Of a stretch of DNA of 7,910 nt, positions 1-7,910 are shown piece by piece. The DNA is from Thermoplasmata archaeon (GTDB taxonomy: Archaea; Thermoplasmatota; Thermoplasmata; Thermoplasmatales; Thermoplasmataceae). The translations under genes and the position numbers were made by a program. The stretch is taken from positions 1-7,910 of the forward strand of contig JAKAUD010000228.1 of the NCBI GenBank assembly GCA_021827885.1, written 5' to 3'. The notes beneath the pieces were generated by a model. The model saw only the letters and a program-made list of their open reading frames with translations. It did not search any database and was not told the origin of the DNA. The first letter of the stretch is position 1. Each line of letters starts with the position of its first letter.

Positions 1-797
1 TCGCTATCTATTTCGTTATCTAAATATATCTGACTCTCTTGCTTATTTAGGGCGATTATGTTATCATATGATAACAATATTAAAACTGACGAAGCCATGA
101 CCATCTCATAAATGATCTGACTGGATGGTTTAAAGATAGAATTGTTTTTAAAAAGATCTAGTTTGTCATGGACTTCCTTTATGAAAAGGAGCCTCCTTGT
201 CTTAATTTTTCTGTAAAAATCCCTTTTTGTGCTATCTGAGTTTATAACTTCATTGAGCTTTAACTGCATAAGTGCTTCCACTACGATGTTTTTCTCGGGA
301 GTTACCATAAATGCATCATTGTCGTATCCATCCCTATAATTTTTCAATAAAGATAGATAATCTTTATTGGTCTCAAAGGTTTCCAAAACCTTAATTAGAT
401 TATTCATCAAGTTTTCATCTATGAACTTAATAGTTTTTGACTTATCTATGAAGGAAAGAAGGATTAGGATTTCAATCTTATCTAATATATCTTTCAACGC
501 CACATTATCCGGGGTATTTTCGCCTAATTTATTATTCAGCAATTGGTTAAGTTCGTTCAATGATTCCTTTATGGATCTTGAATTTGTGAAGTCGTCAATA
601 ATTTTTTCCAGCGTACTAAAGCGAACGCTACCTTTTAGTTTTTTATTCTCATGAGATAAAAAAGCAAACGTTTTCAGCAAAACAATACTCTTAGGCAAAA
701 GCACTGTATCGCCTATTTTTCCTCCATTTTCTTGATTTAGAAGGAATTTCACCTGGCTTATTATCTGGTGCTCATAGGTGAGATCATCTATATCCAT
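1..797 (-). CDS. Unrecognised helical protein downstream of pAgo, candidate partner or effector (C-terminus cut by window edge)
   Basis: An open frame of 265 codons runs from the ATG at 797-795 to the left edge without a stop, so the C-terminus is missing. I do not recognise the family. The visible part is rich in Leu, Ile, Lys, Asn and Asp and looks mostly alpha-helical, with amphipathic stretches around residues 60-115 and 125-155. A basic cluster (KIKTRR, residues 197-202) follows. The most hydrophobic stretch is residues 232-250 (VMASSVLILLSYDNIIAL), which could be a buried helix or a weak membrane segment. No zinc cysteines, nuclease, TIR, Sir2 or ATPase motif is visible. It lies 61 bases downstream of the pAgo gene on the same strand, with a possible TATA-like element of its own, so it may be co-transcribed or separately boosted. 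A role as pAgo partner is inferred from position only. Low GC matches the pAgo gene. Confidence 0.75.
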   Translation of the reverse strand, partial: MDIDDLTYEHQIISQVKFLLNQENGGKIGDTVLLPKSIVLLKTFAFLSHENKKLKGSVRFSTLEKIIDDFTNSRSIKESLNELNQLLNNKLGENTPDNVALKDILDKIEILILLSFIDKSKTIKFIDENLMNNLIKVLETFETNKDYLSLLKNYRDGYDNDAFMVTPEKNIVVEALMQLKLNEVINSDSTKRDFYRKIKTRRLLFIKEVHDKLDLFKNNSIFKPSSQIIYEMVMASSVLILLSYDNIIALNKQESQIYLDNEIDS

Positions 798-823
798 CTA
801 CTTACAAATGATAACTCTTGGTA

Positions 824-833
824 CTTTAATAAA
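824..833 (-). promoter_or_regulatory. Possible TATA box for the gene starting at 797
   Basis: Read on the minus strand this is TTTATTAAAG, centred about 32 bases ahead of the ATG at 797. That would put transcription start about 5 bases before the start codon, as in nearly leaderless archaeal mRNAs. The region is AT-rich throughout, so a chance match is possible. The gene could equally be read from the upstream pAgo transcript. Confidence 0.35.
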
Positions 834-858
834 TTTGCCTATTTATAAATGTTTATAT

Positions 859-2490
859 TTAAATGAGATAATTGATATTGAAGCTTCCCTGGACTGATGT
901 TAGAAATGTTATATTTTTTTCCTTCAAAGAAACAGGTTCTATTTTTGTTATATGTTTAATAGAGTGTACTCTATAAATTCTTTTCTTAGAGAGCCATACT
1001 ACATTCTTAATATCGTTCTCAGAGATGTCTTCATCTTCTGGATAAAGTATACTTACGTATGTGCTGAACAACTGTGGATAAAGTGATTGTTCTGTTGCGA
1101 CCTTTATGACTGCCATATTTTTTCCTATTACTTTATACGGTATTTTGAGTTCCCTTTCCGTGTTATATAAGAAATTATCAGCAAATCCCAGCATTCTTGT
1201 GCTTATATAGTATACCCTGTTAATTAATATTCCTTCGTTTTTAAGAGTGTCTATTAGTTTCATCATACTCTTTCTGTTGATCTCTTTCGTTACAACTATA
1301 TTGAAATAGAAAGGATCCATTTGGTTATCACTGACTGTTGTATTGCCTTTTTTGATAAATTTGCCCGCCTCCTCCACATCAAATATATTAAAATAATTCC
1401 TTCCTGAAAATACGTTAATGTTTTCTGTGCTTGTCAAAGTTTCAATCATGTAATCTATATTTTCAGACATTATGTAGGAAACCGTAAACAGTTTTCTGTA
1501 TTTTCTATCCGATTCGTTTAAAATAGAGTCTGCGTCAATGTAGATGAATCCTGCTATTTTTTCATTGACAAAGTGATCTGGGCTAAGGTACAGGTCATGA
1601 GTTTGCGTTTTTTTATAAATCTCCATTAAAACCATATTAAAGGCATATGAACTGGAAACTTTTCCATTTAGAATAGTACCATCTATTTTAATATGTTGGA
1701 ATGGGAGTCCATGGTTAAGAAAATATTCCTTTGAATCCATGTAGAACTGATTATCGCTATTCCTTATTAAAATTACATTAATGATATTTCTATTTTTATT
1801 TGGTGAATTTGGAATGGAAGTATAATTATAAGCATTATAATTCTCATTTACATTTGAACCATAGGCTTCTAACTTTCTAATGAACAAATTAGCTGACGAG
1901 TTTTTATCGCTTATAGTATTAGTAAGATCAACCACTCTAAAAGAAAAGGGCTTAATTTCAGCTATTTTATTCAAAATCATATTTATATTATTTGAGAAAT
2001 CTTCGTAAGTGATCGCATTCTGGTTAAAATTTACTAACCACTTGTTCGTATCTATTTTATTTTCATTACTATATGAAAAAGCATAAAAATTGATGTCCTT
2101 TCCACCGACGCTTAATTGCATGGACATCCCTAATTTCACTTTGATGGTTTCAATGTCATTTGTTGCAATTGCTCTTACTTCGTAACCCTTCATGTATCTA
2201 TATATGCTCGGATTTCTAAATATGGGTCTGAATGAAATGAAAAGTTTCTTCAAATTTCCTATCTTTTTTTCATTGAGTATTATCCTCCAATGGATATTCG
2301 TATTTATTGAAATATCGATATAGTTTTCCTTAAGGCTCTTTCCGTATTTATTCGTGACAACAACTGTTTCAGCCTTGATACCTTTCGATTGAAAATAATT
2401 TAGTAAGTTAATGTATATTTCTCTTCTATTTATCTTGTGATTATGTTCAAGATCATCAGAGATATATAGCGTTGCAAAGTCATCAGGCAT
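859..2490 (-). CDS. Prokaryotic Argonaute (MID-PIWI, PAZ not apparent), probably catalytically inactive
   Basis: A 543-residue pAgo. Residues 238-300 match the MID domain of A. fulgidus Ago as I remember it: Y250, K254, Q265 and K293 align with the four residues that bind the guide 5' phosphate (Y123, K127, Q137, K163), around a shared GLPFQ/SIPSQ turn. The PIWI domain begins near residue 310 (IAGFIYIDADS). D319 sits where the first catalytic Asp lies, but the second Asp position reads VVTKEIN (K402/E403). The C-terminal block WLSKK then EPVSL (499-522) parallels AfAgo YLSKMNW and LPVTV, with no Asp or His at the last catalytic position. The protein ends in a hydrophobic residue, as pAgos do. 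It is therefore probably a guide binder without slicing. Residues 1 to about 175 are unassigned. The ATG at 2490 is preferred over the GTG at 2499 because GAGGTG lies 6 bases ahead of it. It follows the SWIM gene by 39 bases. Short or truncated long-B pAgo cannot be decided by eye. Confidence 0.85.
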   Translation of the reverse strand: MPDDFATLYISDDLEHNHKINRREIYINLLNYFQSKGIKAETVVVTNKYGKSLKENYIDISINTNIHWRIILNEKKIGNLKKLFISFRPIFRNPSIYRYMKGYEVRAIATNDIETIKVKLGMSMQLSVGGKDINFYAFSYSNENKIDTNKWLVNFNQNAITYEDFSNNINMILNKIAEIKPFSFRVVDLTNTISDKNSSANLFIRKLEAYGSNVNENYNAYNYTSIPNSPNKNRNIINVILIRNSDNQFYMDSKEYFLNHGLPFQHIKIDGTILNGKVSSSYAFNMVLMEIYKKTQTHDLYLSPDHFVNEKIAGFIYIDADSILNESDRKYRKLFTVSYIMSENIDYMIETLTSTENINVFSGRNYFNIFDVEEAGKFIKKGNTTVSDNQMDPFYFNIVVTKEINRKSMMKLIDTLKNEGILINRVYYISTRMLGFADNFLYNTERELKIPYKVIGKNMAVIKVATEQSLYPQLFSTYVSILYPEDEDISENDIKNVVWLSKKRIYRVHSIKHITKIEPVSLKEKNITFLTSVQGSFNINYLI

Positions 2491-2496
2491 TTTCAG

Positions 2497-2502
2497 CACC
2501 TC
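2497..2502 (-). promoter_or_regulatory. Shine-Dalgarno site deciding the pAgo start
   Basis: On the minus strand GAGGTG matches the core of the archaeal anti-SD complement and lies 6 bases before the ATG at 2490. The upstream in-frame GTG at 2499 falls inside this site, so it is an unlikely start. An internal ribosome site here also fits translation of pAgo from a polycistronic mRNA. Confidence 0.6.
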
Positions 2503-2529
2503 TTATGAGAATTCTATTTCTATTTACAA

Positions 2530-2889
2530 TCATTCTAATCTCACTCCGCAATGCTTACAGAATATTGCATCGGATTCATTGCTTGTATGGCAATTCACGC
2601 AAACTTTTGCCTTCTCTTTATAGTGCATCATCATCTTCTGGACATGCGGATATGTCCATGCTGCCTTCACATGCCAGCAGTCATATGAATCGTCATGTTC
2701 GCACCACAGCCTGAATTCCCCATTTCCGTTCCTCTTCACATAGATGTTGAATATCCTTGAAGGCTTGCCTGGCCTGACTTCCTCTACTGTGATGTGATCG
2801 TCCATTACATTGATGTGGAACAGAAGATTGAGATGCTTTGCCATCTCTGCCTCTTCATCTGTCATTGTGAGTTCTCTCCATTTATTCAT
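2530..2889 (-). CDS. Small SWIM-like zinc-finger plus zinc-ribbon protein, first gene of the pAgo operon
   Basis: A 119-residue protein with two likely zinc sites. C63-x-H65 and C71-x-H73 (WCEH then DCWHV) resemble a SWIM finger with His in place of the second Cys. SWIM fingers are known from SWI2/SNF2 helicases, MuDR transposases and small archaeal proteins, where they bind DNA or protein. The C-terminus is a zinc ribbon, C97-x2-C100 and C111-x2-C114 (FCKHCG). I do not recognise a specific family. The ATG at 2889 is chosen because it lies just behind a TATA-like box. An in-frame TTG at 2898 and an ATG at 2865 (GGAGAG 9 bases upstream of the latter) are alternatives. The stop is 39 bases from the pAgo ATG on the same strand, which suggests an operon. 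GC near 44% is far above the pAgo gene, so it may be a resident gene beside an acquired one. Its role with pAgo is unproven. Confidence 0.75.
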   Translation of the reverse strand: MNKWRELTMTDEEAEMAKHLNLLFHINVMDDHITVEEVRPGKPSRIFNIYVKRNGNGEFRLWCEHDDSYDCWHVKAAWTYPHVQKMMMHYKEKAKVCVNCHTSNESDAIFCKHCGVRLE

Positions 2890-2914
2890 TATTATCAATC
2901 TCTTTTATTTTTTG

Positions 2915-2932
2915 ACAATATATATATTTTTC
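2915..2932 (-). promoter_or_regulatory. Probable TATA box of the SWIM/pAgo operon
   Basis: On the minus strand an AATATATATATTG tract is centred near 2922, about 33 bases ahead of the ATG at 2889. Start of transcription would be near 2896, giving a leader of about 7 bases. No comparably placed box was found in the 39 bases before the pAgo gene, which supports one shared transcript. Confidence 0.5.
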
Positions 2933-3076
2933 AAGGCATCGCATAATTTATGTTCCTCTATTGAATCATGCTACTGCGGAGAAGTAAATTAAGATTTGTA
3001 ACAGCCAATGAAAGCAGAGTTTACTTAAATCTTTGCTTAATTTTTTGGCTCCATAGTTTGTTTTCTCCAAGAAGGG
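2933..3076. other. Divergent intergenic region between the pAgo operon and the restriction operon
   Basis: About 145 bases lie between the outward-facing TATA elements. No good small ORF with a start signal is seen. The heptamers AAGTAAA (2982-2988) and AAGATTT (2991-2997) recur as reverse complements at 3020-3026 and 3027-3033, but not in nested order, so they do not form one clean hairpin. They could be regulator half-sites or chance in AT-rich DNA. Confidence 0.4.
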
Positions 3077-3084
3077 TATTTATA
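3077..3084 (+). promoter_or_regulatory. TATA box of the zinc-ribbon / Type IIG operon
   Basis: TATTTATA is centred about 26 bases before the ATG at 3106, the archaeal spacing for a transcript that begins at or beside the start codon. This placement supports the 53-residue reading of the next gene and argues against the longer in-frame start at 2968, which lies upstream of the promoter. Confidence 0.6.
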
Positions 3085-3105
3085 CCATGTTCTTATAATT
3101 TGAAC

Positions 3106-3267
3106 ATGATTTGCCCATCCTGTAAAAATGAAAGCCAACTGAACTTTCTAAACCAGTGGGGTTTTGCACAATTCACAGTTAAGAGGTTTGAATGCACGAA
3201 TTGTAAGGAGAGATTCAATTCTTATGAACAAAAAGGGGAGATAAAATTCACTATACCTCGTTATTAG
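3106..3267 (+). CDS. 53-residue zinc-ribbon protein preceding the Type IIG enzyme
   Basis: A very small protein with one treble-clef or zinc-ribbon site: C3-x2-C6 (CPSC) and C30-x2-C33 (CTNC), separated by 23 residues containing an aromatic stretch (FLNQWGF). A basic and aromatic tail follows (KERFNSYEQKG). Such ribbons commonly bind nucleic acid or act as transcription factors, but I cannot name the family. The frame is open upstream to an ATG at 2968. That part (Leu, Arg, Ser rich, no conserved look) is unlikely to be coding, because the TATA box places transcription start near 3106. The stop is 15 bases before the Type IIG start, so the two are almost certainly co-transcribed. A role as transcriptional controller of the restriction gene, like a C protein, is possible, though C proteins are helix-turn-helix. 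A structural partner is the alternative. Confidence 0.75.
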   Translation: MICPSCKNESQLNFLNQWGFAQFTVKRFECTNCKERFNSYEQKGEIKFTIPRY

Positions 3268-3282
3268 TAGGAAAGTGATTGC

Positions 3283-6200
3283 ATGGTTCAAACTTCGTTT
3301 AGAGTAAAGGAAGATAAAATCGAAGACCAGACACTGAACGCGTTTCGGGATTTTTTATTTAATCAGTTCAAAGAGCTTGTTTTAGAAATACCTGACCGAG
3401 TCAGACTTCAGGAGATTATTAGGGGACGCACATTAATGCGAGATGATCTGCGACACAGAACCAAACCTGAGGATGCAACAGAAGATATCCTCATTACCCC
3501 CATTTTAGAATTCTTGGGTTATAAGCAGAATGTATCGTACTTTAGGAGGACGGGTTCCAATTCGGGACAGAGCAGAAAGGAATGTGACTATACTTTATTT
3601 GTAGATCAAGAAAAAATTTTGGTTGAATCAGAACCTTTGGGAAAAAATCTTTTCAAGGTTGGTGTCGGTGTCAAACAGTTAGCTGGTTATCTGGACATCC
3701 GGTCATTTAACTCTGAGATTGGGATTGCCACTAATGGCCTCAACTGGGTGCTGGTAAAGTATAATGTTGAGAAATTTGGCGTTGATGTTATCGATCAGAT
3801 TGATCTTCTTTCTTTTTTACAGGAATTTCTTGGAACAAAACCACTAGATAACACTTCAGCTATCTTGGAGAATTTCTACAGGACCTTCTCGAAGCAATTC
3901 ATTGTTGAAACAGCAAAAGAATTGGAAATAACTTTAGATATTTCCAAGAAAAATGTAAGTAGAAAATTTTATAATGACTATATAAAGTTAGTTTTCGGGG
4001 TTGAAAATAACGGGGAACACTCTTACTGCCTCATAGACGGAATCCAAGGGAGCGGACTTACCGAGGTTCAGAAGCGGAAATTCGCAATAACACTGATGAA
4101 TAGATTGATTTTCATTAAGTTCCTTGAGGATCGAGTACTTACAAGAAACAATTTGCTAAAAGACCTCTTGGACAATTACAATAGCCTTAAGGAAAAGGAA
4201 AACACTCTGAACTTTTATGACACCTATCTAAAAAAGCTTTTTTATAAAGTATTCAATACAAGTATAATCAAAAGGGATTATGAGGTATCTAACTCTCCTT
4301 TTTTTTCAGATTTGCCGTATCTTAACGGTGGTCTCTTTAGGGAGAGCTTCCAAAACGAAGGAAATATTAGGGTTGAAGACGACATATTGATCAAAATCAT
4401 TAATAGTCTACTACTGGGGTATAGCTTTAGTATAATTTCTCAAAAAGCGACTGAGTATTCATCAGAGACTGAGAATATTCTTGATCCCGATATTTTAGGT
4501 TATGTTTTCGAGAAAACTATCAATTTTTTAACGTCTCCAGGAGATAATGCTAGAAAGCAGAAAGGTGCTTACTATACACCAGAGCAAATCACTAATCATA
4601 TGTCAGAGAAGGCCATATTTTATAAAATTTTAGAGAAAATAAAGGAAGGGCTATCAGATTCAAATTGGACTGAATCTGACATATCGAAGTTGAGTACTAT
4701 TGCCGAAGTAGCAACAATGAACAATATGCATGAAGGAACAGCAAAGAACATTCTAAAGAGGATTGATGAATTGAAAGTGGTTGATCCGGCTTGTGGTAGT
4801 GGACATTTCTTAACAGCCGCCTTAAAACTTATTGTTTACATTAGAAAAACCATCGCAGAGAAAGCCGGTTTATCCGTTGACTTGTATGAGCTTAAAAGAA
4901 GTACAATTAGCCTTAACCTTTACGGGATAGATATTGAAGAACCTGCTGTAGAAATAGCTAAGTTAAGACTTTGGTTATCACTTATTGAAGAGGTTGATTC
5001 TGAAAATGTGAATTCTATAAAGACACTTCCCAATATTGAATACAACATAATCTTGGGTGATAGCTTAATAGGCTGGAATGGTGAGTCACTTATTCAAGGA
5101 ACATTGGGTGAAATTAGGGATGAAAGATTAATTGGAATTTTCGAAGGCTTAGAAGTTTACTTTGCTGATGATCCAATCGGGTGTTCCCGTCTAGATAAAG
5201 TAAAAGAACATTTGTTTAAGGAGCATCCCAAGGTTAAAGACCTAACAATTGCTTACTCTAATTTAAAGCAAATGTACATTATAGAGCAAGGAGAAAGGGC
5301 GGTAATCATTAAAAGGATATTAGAAACAATTAGGGCTAAGATTTATGCTTTTATCAACCCTATTTTTGAAGAATATATTAACAGAACCTATTTTAATCCG
5401 GTTAGATCGAACCCTAACAGGCCAAAATTCAGAGTGAATAATGGGATTCACTGGACTCTAGATTTTACTGAGGTATTTGATAATGGGGGTTTTGATGTTG
5501 TGATTGGCAATCCTCCTTATGGATTCAAATTTGAGCAGATTAATAGAGATTATCTTAGAGCGAGATTCGTGAGCAGCTCAGAGAATGGAAACTCTGCAAT
5601 GATGTTTATCGAAAGAGCCTTGGAACTTTTAAAAGAAAATGGCTACCTTTGCTTTATAGTTCCAAAATCCCTTGCTTTTGCTCAGGTTTGGGAAGAAGGA
5701 AGAAGAATTGTTGTGGAACACCTTAGTTGGACTATAGATGTGAGTAAGGCATTTCTAGATGTTAAGCTAGAACAGATGATTATCGGCTTGTTGAAAAACA
5801 GTCATTGCCTCACCTACGAGAACGAGAGAATAGATTCGCATGCTGTAGTGACTCTCGAAAAAGAAGTGCTGGAAAAAACTGGGACTATCTTATTTAGTGG
5901 TTCTAAGGATGAAATTAATATTCTCAAAAAGATGAATGCTTCAGGACGTTACTTTCGAGACATATCGACTACTAGGAGAGGACTCCCCCTTCAATCCTTT
6001 TTAACAGATTCTAAAACAAATTTTCCTGTAGTGATGGGTAGAAATATTTCCCAATACAGAATAGAAACACCCGGTCAGTATTTACCCAATGACACAATTA
6101 AAGACCAAAATCCGGAGGTCTTAGATTTTCTCAAAAACGCCAAGGTAGTTTCACAAAGAATAGTTGCACATATTCAGAACCCTGTTCCACATTTGGTAAT

Positions 6201-6606
6201 AATGAGTGCAGTTAATGAAAAAGGTCTCCTCACTATTGATACGGTTGAAAATACGATGATTACAAATAACCAGTATTCGGCATATTTCTTGGTGGCATTG
6301 CTCAATTCAAAAATTGTCGCGTGGTATTGTTATAGATTTGTGTTTTCTAATGCGATAAGGTCTATGGACCTCGATGGTTATTACATTGGAAAAATCCCTT
6401 TACCTTCTAGCAATAAATTCATAAAGGAAATAAATAGTTTCATTGAAGAAAATCAAGAGATTTTTGAAGCTTATGGTCTAACCACTATATCAGATGAAAA
6501 AATAAATAAGAAAATTATAGAAATTGAGAAACTTATTGGCAAAGCGTATGGTCTTTCAGAAAAGGAAATTGAATTTGTGAACATTGAAAGGCTTTCATTG
6601 ACATAA
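3283..6606 (+). CDS. Type IIG-like restriction-modification enzyme (nuclease, N6-adenine methylase and specificity in one chain)
   Basis: A 1107-residue single-chain enzyme. The N-terminal 160 residues look like an HsdR-type PD-(D/E)XK nuclease: E67, D102 (ECDYTLF), E115-S-E117 and the Q132-LAG-Y136 motif, then a TNGLNW-like strand. ESE replaces the usual ExK, as BamHI also does with ExE. A helical linker spans about 165-420. The methylase has GAYYTP (428-433, motif X), DPACGSG (501-507, AdoMet-binding motif I) and NPPY (743-746, catalytic motif IV), the gamma-class order for N6-adenine. The C-terminal part, from about 890, has LLNSK (1006-1010) and GKIPLP (1036-1041), as in TaqI-like or Eco57I-like target recognition domains. 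It would methylate host sites and cut unmodified DNA. The start has AGTGAT 4 bases before it, and a zinc-ribbon gene precedes it by 15 bases. BREX PglX is the main alternative, but the nuclease domain and lack of other brx genes argue against it. No recognition site can be read from the sequence. Confidence 0.9.
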   Translation: MVQTSFRVKEDKIEDQTLNAFRDFLFNQFKELVLEIPDRVRLQEIIRGRTLMRDDLRHRTKPEDATEDILITPILEFLGYKQNVSYFRRTGSNSGQSRKECDYTLFVDQEKILVESEPLGKNLFKVGVGVKQLAGYLDIRSFNSEIGIATNGLNWVLVKYNVEKFGVDVIDQIDLLSFLQEFLGTKPLDNTSAILENFYRTFSKQFIVETAKELEITLDISKKNVSRKFYNDYIKLVFGVENNGEHSYCLIDGIQGSGLTEVQKRKFAITLMNRLIFIKFLEDRVLTRNNLLKDLLDNYNSLKEKENTLNFYDTYLKKLFYKVFNTSIIKRDYEVSNSPFFSDLPYLNGGLFRESFQNEGNIRVEDDILIKIINSLLLGYSFSIISQKATEYSSETENILDPDILGYVFEKTINFLTSPGDNARKQKGAYYTPEQITNHMSEKAIFYKILEKIKEGLSDSNWTESDISKLSTIAEVATMNNMHEGTAKNILKRIDELKVVDPACGSGHFLTAALKLIVYIRKTIAEKAGLSVDLYELKRSTISLNLYGIDIEEPAVEIAKLRLWLSLIEEVDSENVNSIKTLPNIEYNIILGDSLIGWNGESLIQGTLGEIRDERLIGIFEGLEVYFADDPIGCSRLDKVKEHLFKEHPKVKDLTIAYSNLKQMYIIEQGERAVIIKRILETIRAKIYAFINPIFEEYINRTYFNPVRSNPNRPKFRVNNGIHWTLDFTEVFDNGGFDVVIGNPPYGFKFEQINRDYLRARFVSSSENGNSAMMFIERALELLKENGYLCFIVPKSLAFAQVWEEGRRIVVEHLSWTIDVSKAFLDVKLEQMIIGLLKNSHCLTYENERIDSHAVVTLEKEVLEKTGTILFSGSKDEINILKKMNASGRYFRDISTTRRGLPLQSFLTDSKTNFPVVMGRNISQYRIETPGQYLPNDTIKDQNPEVLDFLKNAKVVSQRIVAHIQNPVPHLVIMSAVNEKGLLTIDTVENTMITNNQYSAYFLVALLNSKIVAWYCYRFVFSNAIRSMDLDGYYIGKIPLPSSNKFIKEINSFIEENQEIFEAYGLTTISDEKINKKIIEIEKLIGKAYGLSEKEIEFVNIERLSLT

Positions 6607-6668
6607 CCTTAAAACTTTCCTGCAGATGAGAATTCAAAAAAAATTGAAAGTTGAATAATCTAAGGTTA
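6604..6668. repeat. Imperfect inverted repeat just after the restriction gene
   Basis: TAACCTTA (6604-6611) and AACTTTC (6613-6619) pair with GAAAGTT (6646-6652) and TAAGGTTA (6661-6668). This forms a two-part stem with a 1-base gap on one side, an 8-base bulge on the other and a loop of 26 bases. It begins at the stop codon. It might act as an mRNA 3' hairpin or mark a boundary of the acquired segment. The pairing is AU-rich and could be weak. Confidence 0.4.
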
Positions 6669-6718
6669 GTCTTTTAGGCACAATCACTTAACGAATTAGT
6701 ATTTTCTCTCATTTACTC

Positions 6719-6728
6719 ATTTTTTTCC
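6719..6728 (+). terminator. Possible T-run terminator of the restriction operon
   Basis: Seven consecutive T (6720-6726), with more T-rich sequence on both sides, lie about 115 bases after the restriction stop. Archaeal RNA polymerase stops at such runs without needing a hairpin. It immediately precedes a TATA box for the next operon. The length is modest, so confidence is limited. Confidence 0.35.
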
Positions 6729-6734
6729 TTTATA
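6729..6734 (+). promoter_or_regulatory. TATA box for the small ORF / radical SAM operon
   Basis: TTTATA is centred about 27 bases ahead of the ATG at 6758, the exact spacing for leaderless archaeal transcription. This is the main support for treating the 50-codon frame at 6758 as real. Confidence 0.5.
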
Positions 6735-6757
6735 GAAACATTTTAGGGATTCCGGGC

Positions 6758-6910
6758 ATGAACGGAAATATGGCACAAACAAATAAACTGAAATATACAG
6801 ATGAACGAAAGCGGAATCAAATCGAATCAGAGCAGATGAAATCATGCGAGGTCATAAACCGGCAATGCACTTCACACAGATCTAATGGAAAGGAAGGAAT
6901 GAAAGTATGA
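6758..6910 (+). CDS. Hypothetical 50-residue protein, translationally coupled to the next ORF
   Basis: A short, strongly hydrophilic frame rich in Lys, Arg, Glu, Gln and Asn, with two Cys (residues 29 and 36) that do not form a recognisable zinc motif. It has no similarity I can name. Support comes from context: a TATA box 27 bases before the ATG, and an ATGA overlap of its stop with the start of the next ORF at 6907, a common archaeal coupling arrangement. An internal ATG at 6770 would give 46 residues. The residue mix (for example an RKRNQ stretch beside Ser and Thr rich parts) does not look strongly conserved, so it might be a leader ORF or a non-coding leader. Confidence 0.4.
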   Translation: MNGNMAQTNKLKYTDERKRNQIESEQMKSCEVINRQCTSHRSNGKEGMKV

Positions 6911-7071
6911 ATAAGTTTGACCTGGAATTCCTGAACGGATATATCAAAAGCAGCTTGAGACTTGCAAGGAAGATAAAGAATGCTAAATCACTGGAGGAAG
7001 CAAAGAATTTTGCTTTTCAAATTGAAGAAAGGGCAATGCAGAAATTGGAAGAGACTATGGGAGATCTCTGA
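6907..7071 (+). CDS. Hypothetical 54-residue helical protein
   Basis: The frame starts with MNKFDLEFLNGY and is predicted by eye to be two amphipathic helices (about residues 5-27 and 28-50), with alternating hydrophobic and charged residues (LARKIKNAKSLEEAKNFAF). The codon choice and higher GC match the downstream radical SAM gene. It overlaps the preceding ORF by ATGA, has GGAAGGA about 10 bases upstream, and ends 38 bases before the radical SAM start. It may be a small partner or a regulator of translation for that gene. I do not recognise a family. Confidence 0.6.
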   Translation: MNKFDLEFLNGYIKSSLRLARKIKNAKSLEEAKNFAFQIEERAMQKLEETMGDL

Positions 7072-7109
7072 TGCAATGGGAAAAGCTATAAGGACTTGAT
7101 GACATATGT

Positions 7110-7910
7110 ATGACAATAATGGCCATGATTAAAACCGAAATGATCGAATCCGATAGAGAAAAGAATAGAATGGCAGCCTTGAAGGCGTGGGAAACAATAA
7201 GACGACAGAAAATTGAAAAAATCAAAGCTGAAAACGAGAGCATTGATGACTATTTCTTCGATCCTGATATGAGGAAAGTTGCCTTTGGAACCTATAGGAT
7301 AAATCCTCCGCTTATCAAACCATCAAAACTTACCTGGGTTGAGAAGGGCGGTGTTGGCAAAGAACTATCTGACGGGTGGTCCCTAAATTTTGCAGTTGGA
7401 TGCACCCACGCATGCAGATTCTGCTATGTTGACAGCATAAACAAGAGGTATGGGAACAAAAGAGCTGGCCCTCTTGTCAACAGGGCATGGGGTAATTATT
7501 TCTACACCCCCGAAAACATTGATGAGGCAATTGAGAAAACCAACTGGAAGAAATGGGAAGGCATTGAAGTGATGATGTCTTCAACACACGATGCATATCT
7601 TCCTCAGCTTGCACCAGTTACAAGGAGAATTATAAAGGCTGCACTTGAAAATGGAGTTAAGCTTTGTGTTCAGACAAGATCTCCCCTTGTAAAGAAGGAT
7701 TTTGACATTTATTCAAAATTCAAGGATCAGGTAAGAATACAGGTTTCCGTCGCAACAATGAATCATGAGCTTTCAAGGCTTATGGAGCCAAGGGTAGCAG
7801 GACCAGAAGCAAGGATTGAGATAATCAGAGAGGCAAAAAGGCTTGGTCTCAAAGCCGGTATAATTATAGCCCCTGTGATGCCGCCATTGAAGATTAGACC
7901 CTACCCTTCA
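7110..7910 (+). CDS. Radical SAM protein of the SplB/COG1533 type (C-terminus cut by window edge)
   Basis: 267 codons are visible with no stop before the right edge. The CxxxCxxC cluster motif that binds the 4Fe-4S centre is C98, C102, C105 in GCTHACRFCYV, preceded by a SLNFAVGC strand. This layout, with GC-H-C-FCY and a following SINKRYG stretch, is typical of the SPL-like radical SAM family (COG1533). Family members include spore photoproduct lyase and many archaeal proteins of unknown substrate. The visible barrel continues with MMSSTHDAYLP, LCVQTRSP and QVSVATMN strands and RLMEPRVAGPEARIE, also as in COG1533. The N-terminal 40 residues are charged and helical, and of uncertain use. The start at 7110 is the first ATG after an in-frame stop. 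ATGs at 7119, 7125 and 7140 are possible. It is probably a resident chromosomal gene, not part of the defence island. The substrate cannot be told. Confidence 0.88.
   Translation, partial: MTIMAMIKTEMIESDREKNRMAALKAWETIRRQKIEKIKAENESIDDYFFDPDMRKVAFGTYRINPPLIKPSKLTWVEKGGVGKELSDGWSLNFAVGCTHACRFCYVDSINKRYGNKRAGPLVNRAWGNYFYTPENIDEAIEKTNWKKWEGIEVMMSSTHDAYLPQLAPVTRRIIKAALENGVKLCVQTRSPLVKKDFDIYSKFKDQVRIQVSVATMNHELSRLMEPRVAGPEARIEIIREAKRLGLKAGIIIAPVMPPLKIRPYPS

Follow-up and report, generated by a model that had tools for sequence, protein, structure and literature searches.

The long-B Argonautes, both split and single-chain, have been described as lying upstream of an alpha-helical protein that is fused to transmembrane (TM), TIR, HEPN or nuclease parts, and others of this class lie upstream of a Sir2-like protein, according to the account in PMC10954474. 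In the AfAgo-N/AfAgo/Af1317 operon of Archaeoglobus fulgidus, a PAZ-less N-L1-L2 protein (250 aa) is combined with an inactive MID-PIWI protein and with a downstream protein, Af1317, whose conserved alpha-helical domain is joined to another domain, for example a TM part, and SiAgo of Sulfolobus islandicus uses a separate Aga1 and is accompanied by a separate membrane effector gene (described in the same source). In the bacterial BPAM systems, a long inactive Argonaute gene is located upstream of a TM protein gene; in EaBPAM, viability falls when the Argonaute and the full-length TM protein are both present, killing does not need an extra plasmid, and no direct interaction between the two proteins was detected in the experiments presented there (PMC10620215). 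Here we analyze a stretch of 7,910 nucleotides from a Thermoplasmata archaeon (contig JAKAUD010000228.1, positions 1 to 7,910; hereafter the window), in which an Argonaute-fold gene is followed by the gene for a membrane protein.

We propose, with a probability of about 0.7, that a Thermoplasmatales archaeon defends itself by abortive infection with these two genes, which would encode a dead guide-binding Argonaute and a membrane effector. The computed support is that the Argonaute fold extends over the chain, the guide pocket is conserved, the catalytic tetrad is broken, and the TM gene adjoins the Argonaute gene and co-varies with it. Residue conservation is given for a 16-row alignment (A4) of the window, 13 clusters and the loci L002 and L004, with identity down to 22%; omitted from it are P0001, which is the window itself, P0010, which by eye is nearly identical to L002, and the fragments P0014 and P0016. 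Residues are counted from GTG 2499, although ATG 2490 is the better fit to most relatives. The features are as follows.

859..2499, minus strand: Argonaute-fold gene, 546 aa if started at GTG 2499 and 543 aa if started at ATG 2490 (open reading frame list, relatives, model and PDB fold matches)
2074..2499, minus strand: N lobe, equivalent to N-L1-L2 and lacking a PAZ domain, residues 1 to about 142; boundary approximate (fold alignments, model secondary structure)
862..2073, minus strand: MID-PIWI, residues about 143-546
1609..1743, minus strand: putative pocket residues Y253, K257, Q268 and K296/K297 (A4 conservation and published motif)
1534..1536, minus strand: D322, tetrad position 1, the recognizable remnant besides possibly E353 (15/16, S in L004)
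1285..1287, minus strand: K405, at the place of the second catalytic residue, where the fourth PIWI strand ends (assigned by strand order in the model)
862..864, minus strand: C-terminal I546, invariant (16/16)
3..797, minus strand: membrane effector gene, first 265 codons, running off the window end

Judged by its predicted structure, the protein is an Argonaute along its whole chain: in PDB fold searches with the model, 47 of 50 and 50 of 50 listed matches are titled Argonaute, Piwi or prokaryotic Argonaute (pAgo) complexes. Long Argonautes start at model residue 2-6 in the structural alignments and the SiAgo chain only from 143, so that the model describes a compact, PAZ-less single chain with a reduced N lobe. 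An earlier reading of this DNA from its letters alone (the sequence-only reading) had proposed a diverged archaeal Argonaute, which these matches bear out; it had also expected MID-PIWI matches over ~180-543, and Argonautes including SiAgo are indeed matched, but the protein is not MID-PIWI only, given the N lobe in the same chain. A split Argonaute of the SiAgo/AfAgo type, with N-L1-L2 on a separate gene, was rejected because the N lobe is in the same chain and the upstream gene in the window encodes a 122-aa zinc-ribbon protein. A short pAgo was rejected on pocket type, the HK/RK pairs being absent and Y253 present in 16/16 rows.

The same reading had anticipated that an ordinary search could overlook the protein, and this proved correct. 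Pfam and PADLOC scans gave 0 rows at E<=1, NCBIfam gave one unrelated row (E 0.026, far under its cut-off), and PHROGs gave no significant match; of the PDB searches by sequence or profile, two returned no row up to E 10 and two only rows at the level of chance, with E 1.2 and 0.15 at best, and hhalign comparison with two other archaeal Argonautes found no alignable similarity (E 0.12 and 0.26). Because the fold agrees, we read the missing match to Piwi or curated Argonaute models as a limit of sensitivity. The Pfam Piwi model itself yielded 3 matches, in 2 genomes, over 378 genomes of the phylum. The Argonaute is also rare: an even draw of 389 genomes from the phylum had it in 1, and a single-sequence query found it in 1 of 61 relatives. 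Among viral contigs, searched with a single sequence and two profiles, 2, 90 and 42 stretches fit a pattern and none encoded a relative, and a plasmid search with the distant relative L004 found no relative. The scans indicate that Pfam, PADLOC, NCBIfam and PHROGs miss dead Argonautes with membrane effectors in this archaeal group, and Argonaute defence is therefore probably under-counted.

The published motif of the 5'-phosphate pocket is Y/R, K, Q, K (Y463, K467, Q478 and K506 in RsAgo), the YK pocket being typical of long-B Argonautes and HK/RK of short pAgos (as given in PMC6299218). In A4, Y253 and Q268 are invariant (16/16 each), position 257 is K in 12 rows and R in 4, K296 is present in 15/16 and K297 in 16/16. 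The pocket of the family is accordingly of the YK type, as in the long-B class. The sequence-only reading, whose numbers are 3 lower because they count from ATG 2490, had placed an intact pocket at Y250, K254, Q265 and K293; the first three stand, but the fourth residue may, from the conservation pattern, be its K294 (K297) rather than K293 (K296), given that L004 keeps only K297, whereas the RsAgo spacing favours K296. A chance occurrence of the motif was rejected since even a relative at 22% identity retains it. The C-terminal carboxylate of AfAgo helps to hold a metal at the guide 5' end, and by analogy the carboxylate of I546 is a possible metal/5'-phosphate ligand.

The PIWI site presents the opposite picture. 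The canonical tetrad of catalytic residues is absent, as in long-B Argonautes, with D322 placed at position 1 and K405 at position 2 from the strand order of the model, and position 4 from a sequence motif. It had been claimed from the letters that the tetrad keeps at most D319, that the second Asp is replaced (K402/E403) and that the last position is neither Asp nor His; all of this agrees with A4, where D319 is our D322 and the invariant E353 (16/16) may, judging from its conservation, be a leftover Glu finger. The second position is K in 12 and R in 4 of the 16 rows and is preceded by an invariant T404 (T404-K405, 1285-1290, minus strand; 16/16), which argues for a conserved replacement of the second Asp rather than drift; T404-K405 is perhaps a nucleic-acid contact. 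The fourth position is N529, located through an EPV-x5-N motif compared by eye with the PVT motif of the L008 Argonaute, and is N in 14 rows, S in 1 and K in 1. On these substitutions, the cutting activity has probably been lost while the guide pocket was kept.

The effector gene begins 61 bases after the Argonaute stop codon, on the same strand. A complete copy, P0018, is 355 aa long and agrees at 99% identity with the 265 residues encoded in the window; conserved helices and a hydrophobic C-terminal part are common to the relatives of the effector. Two C-terminal TM segments were found in 8 of 10 effectors and one in 2 of 10, including P0018, by a simple scan that may miss a second segment close to the first. 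The model of the effector has a C-terminal TM hairpin (helices 302-324 and 329-351) and, besides it, some 240 residues of conserved helical structure, predicted with fair confidence; the structure prediction comprised 8 of the 10 rows of alignment A2. A PDB search with the effector profile returned one chance-level row (E 1.8). With lengths of 378-407 aa, the clusters P0026-P0029 may form a second effector subfamily.

The arrangement of an Argonaute gene followed by a TM gene on the same strand recurs in all three distinct loci read, with gaps of 61 bases in the window, 35 in L002 and 41 in L004, that is, down to 22% Argonaute identity; in this directly downstream position of the TM gene the loci resemble BPAM, and in having such a gene at all the SiAgo-Aga2 type. 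L002, a close locus, comes from a Thermoplasmata metagenome-assembled genome, and one more distant effector relative carries the name of a Thermoplasmatales archaeon. The distant system (L004:4392-7384, in genome G039; 22% Argonaute identity) encodes a 407-aa TM protein and is surrounded by open reading frames that by eye are integrase-like, DNA-methylase-like and nuclease-like. Three of the eight effector clusters have a longest source contig of the same size as that of an Argonaute cluster (3477, 3866 and 7017); the other five show no such agreement. Order-wide, the Argonaute is present in 2 of 117 genomes and the effector in the same 2, namely G039 and G432 (the latter with the same coordinates as L002), both of which were already rows in the query alignments. 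For six pairs (the window with P0018, the three pairs from same-size contigs, L002 and L004), the Argonaute and effector identity matrices correlate with r 0.97, a value that 2 of 720 permutations reach; when L004 is left out, r is 0.78 (2 of 120 permutations). The adjacent TM protein is a candidate for the partner that the sequence-only reading had predicted.

The guide chemistry, the target, sensing, activation and membrane damage we infer as follows. The MID pocket would take a short 5'-phosphorylated guide that pairs with the nucleic acid of an invader. As PIWI is unable to cleave, binding of the target would act through a change in the shape of the Argonaute, which would thereby signal to the protein of the next gene and activate it; the effector, with its helical domain and C-terminal pair of membrane helices, would then damage the host membrane and kill or arrest the cell, a self-sacrifice against the virus. 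The broken PIWI site together with the kept pocket implies binding without cutting, and therefore an output that probably runs via a partner; the literature on long-B Argonaute operons and the loss of viability with EaBPAM in turn lead us to favour a course in which guide-directed sensing brings about an attack on the membrane and abortive infection.

A kept pocket and a broken tetrad would suit any non-cutting Argonaute, and C-terminal TM helices could serve as an anchor, so the inactive Argonaute might by itself hinder invader DNA or transcripts, as a silencer or replication block, with the membrane protein as a mere anchor. We consider this unlikely, since the conserved helical part of the effector exceeds the needs of an anchor and cell death in EaBPAM, as reported in PMC10620215, requires both the Argonaute and the full-length TM protein. 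It is more improbable still that the two genes travel in a defence island with no relation to each other, the Argonaute working with another partner or with none: the distinct loci read are only three, each with a different upstream gene, and five effector clusters lack a size-matched contig among the Argonaute clusters, but order, strand and small gap are the same in all three, three further pairs agree in source-contig size, and the identities co-vary. Least probable of all is a nuclease that is still active or differently catalytic, with E353, D322 and other residues forming an unusual site. The conservation of these two residues would fit such a site, but K/R at the second position and N/S/K at the fourth are found in 16/16 rows, and D322 is gone in the most distant relative (L004), which retains both the pocket and the effector gene.

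By features and fold, the proposed Argonaute-effector system is a variant of the inactive-Argonaute/membrane-effector systems. It shares the tetrad loss, the YK pocket and the downstream TM partner with long-B Argonautes of the BPAM kind, a placement by features, the sequences being too distant for a tree; BPAM is bacterial; neither PADLOC nor NCBIfam gives a significant match for the window family. SiAgo is an archaeal Argonaute of matching structure (9lgw, 8znj), but the window Argonaute has no sequence match to PDB chains and carries its N lobe within one chain instead of relying on Aga1. The AfAgo system has two chains, AfAgo itself being 427 aa long, where the window has one of about 543 aa; Af1317 (337 aa), compared by description only, is close in size to the 355 aa of P0018. 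SPARTA, SPARSA and SPARDA are similar in the inactive PIWI, the partner-driven response and the fold matches, but have HK/RK pockets (PMC6299218) and an APAZ chain that is either separate or fused, whereas here the pocket begins with Y and there is one chain. A short pAgo was also observed at L008:273-3486 (G381); its best PDB sequence matches include SPARDA Argonautes, and by eye a 587-aa open reading frame lies upstream of it and an OLD-like ATPase frame downstream.

The open-licence literature searched yielded no description of such a system in Thermoplasmatales. It is possible, although we lean towards doubt, that these proteins represent a separate, so far unrecognized Argonaute lineage in Thermoplasmatales and relatives, in which a minimal single chain of about 540 aa includes an N lobe of some 140 residues, the membrane effectors form a family of their own, and the Lys/Arg that replaces the second catalytic Asp takes part in target sensing; this lineage would be either the unsplit ancestor of the SiAgo/AfAgo-type split systems or an independent, convergent reduction. 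The locus indicates that dead Argonautes with membrane effectors extend into this archaeal group, and its compact single chain is a handy subject for how a dead Argonaute passes target recognition to a separate membrane protein, a step left open for AfAgo and BPAM in the accounts of PMC10954474 and PMC10620215.

The remaining genes of the window are these.

2530-2898, minus strand: zinc-ribbon protein gene, 122 aa, upstream of the Argonaute gene
3283-6606, plus strand: type IIG restriction-methylase (Eco57I and TaqI_C matches), beside the Argonaute gene
Plus strand of the window: small zinc-ribbon open reading frame
7110 onward (to 7910, the window end), plus strand: radical SAM gene

We infer that the window is a defence island in an archaeal chromosome. 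Restriction genes are neighbours both here and in L002, where open reading frames resemble, by eye, type I restriction-modification and DNA adenine methylase genes, and the gene upstream of the Argonaute differs in each of the three loci. The G+C content is 29-32% over 1-2500 vs 41-42% at 7001-7750, the radical SAM end. The nearest genome (G001) matches the flank 6940-7910 at 94% DNA identity and a congener (G003) matches 6699-7885 at 83%; in these drafts, 88% and 86% complete, there is no DNA match to window 1-2500 or to the type IIG gene. No empty insertion site was seen within the limits set by the G001 contig, which begins at window 6940, and the G003 contig, which stops 495 bases past the shared flank. 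An Rfam scan of the window found no family, and a repeat scan found weak scattered pairs only and no array. The radical SAM protein (window 7110-7910, plus strand; L025:2861-4853) matched the PA0069 and mobile-pair families below cut-off, and in G003 the gene next to it encodes the three-Cys-motif partner TcmP (TIGR04474, above cut-off). G003 contains four stretches that resemble, at 72-90% identity, parts of 2512-2874 in the region of the 122-aa zinc-ribbon gene, so this gene is repeated and perhaps mobile or island-associated.
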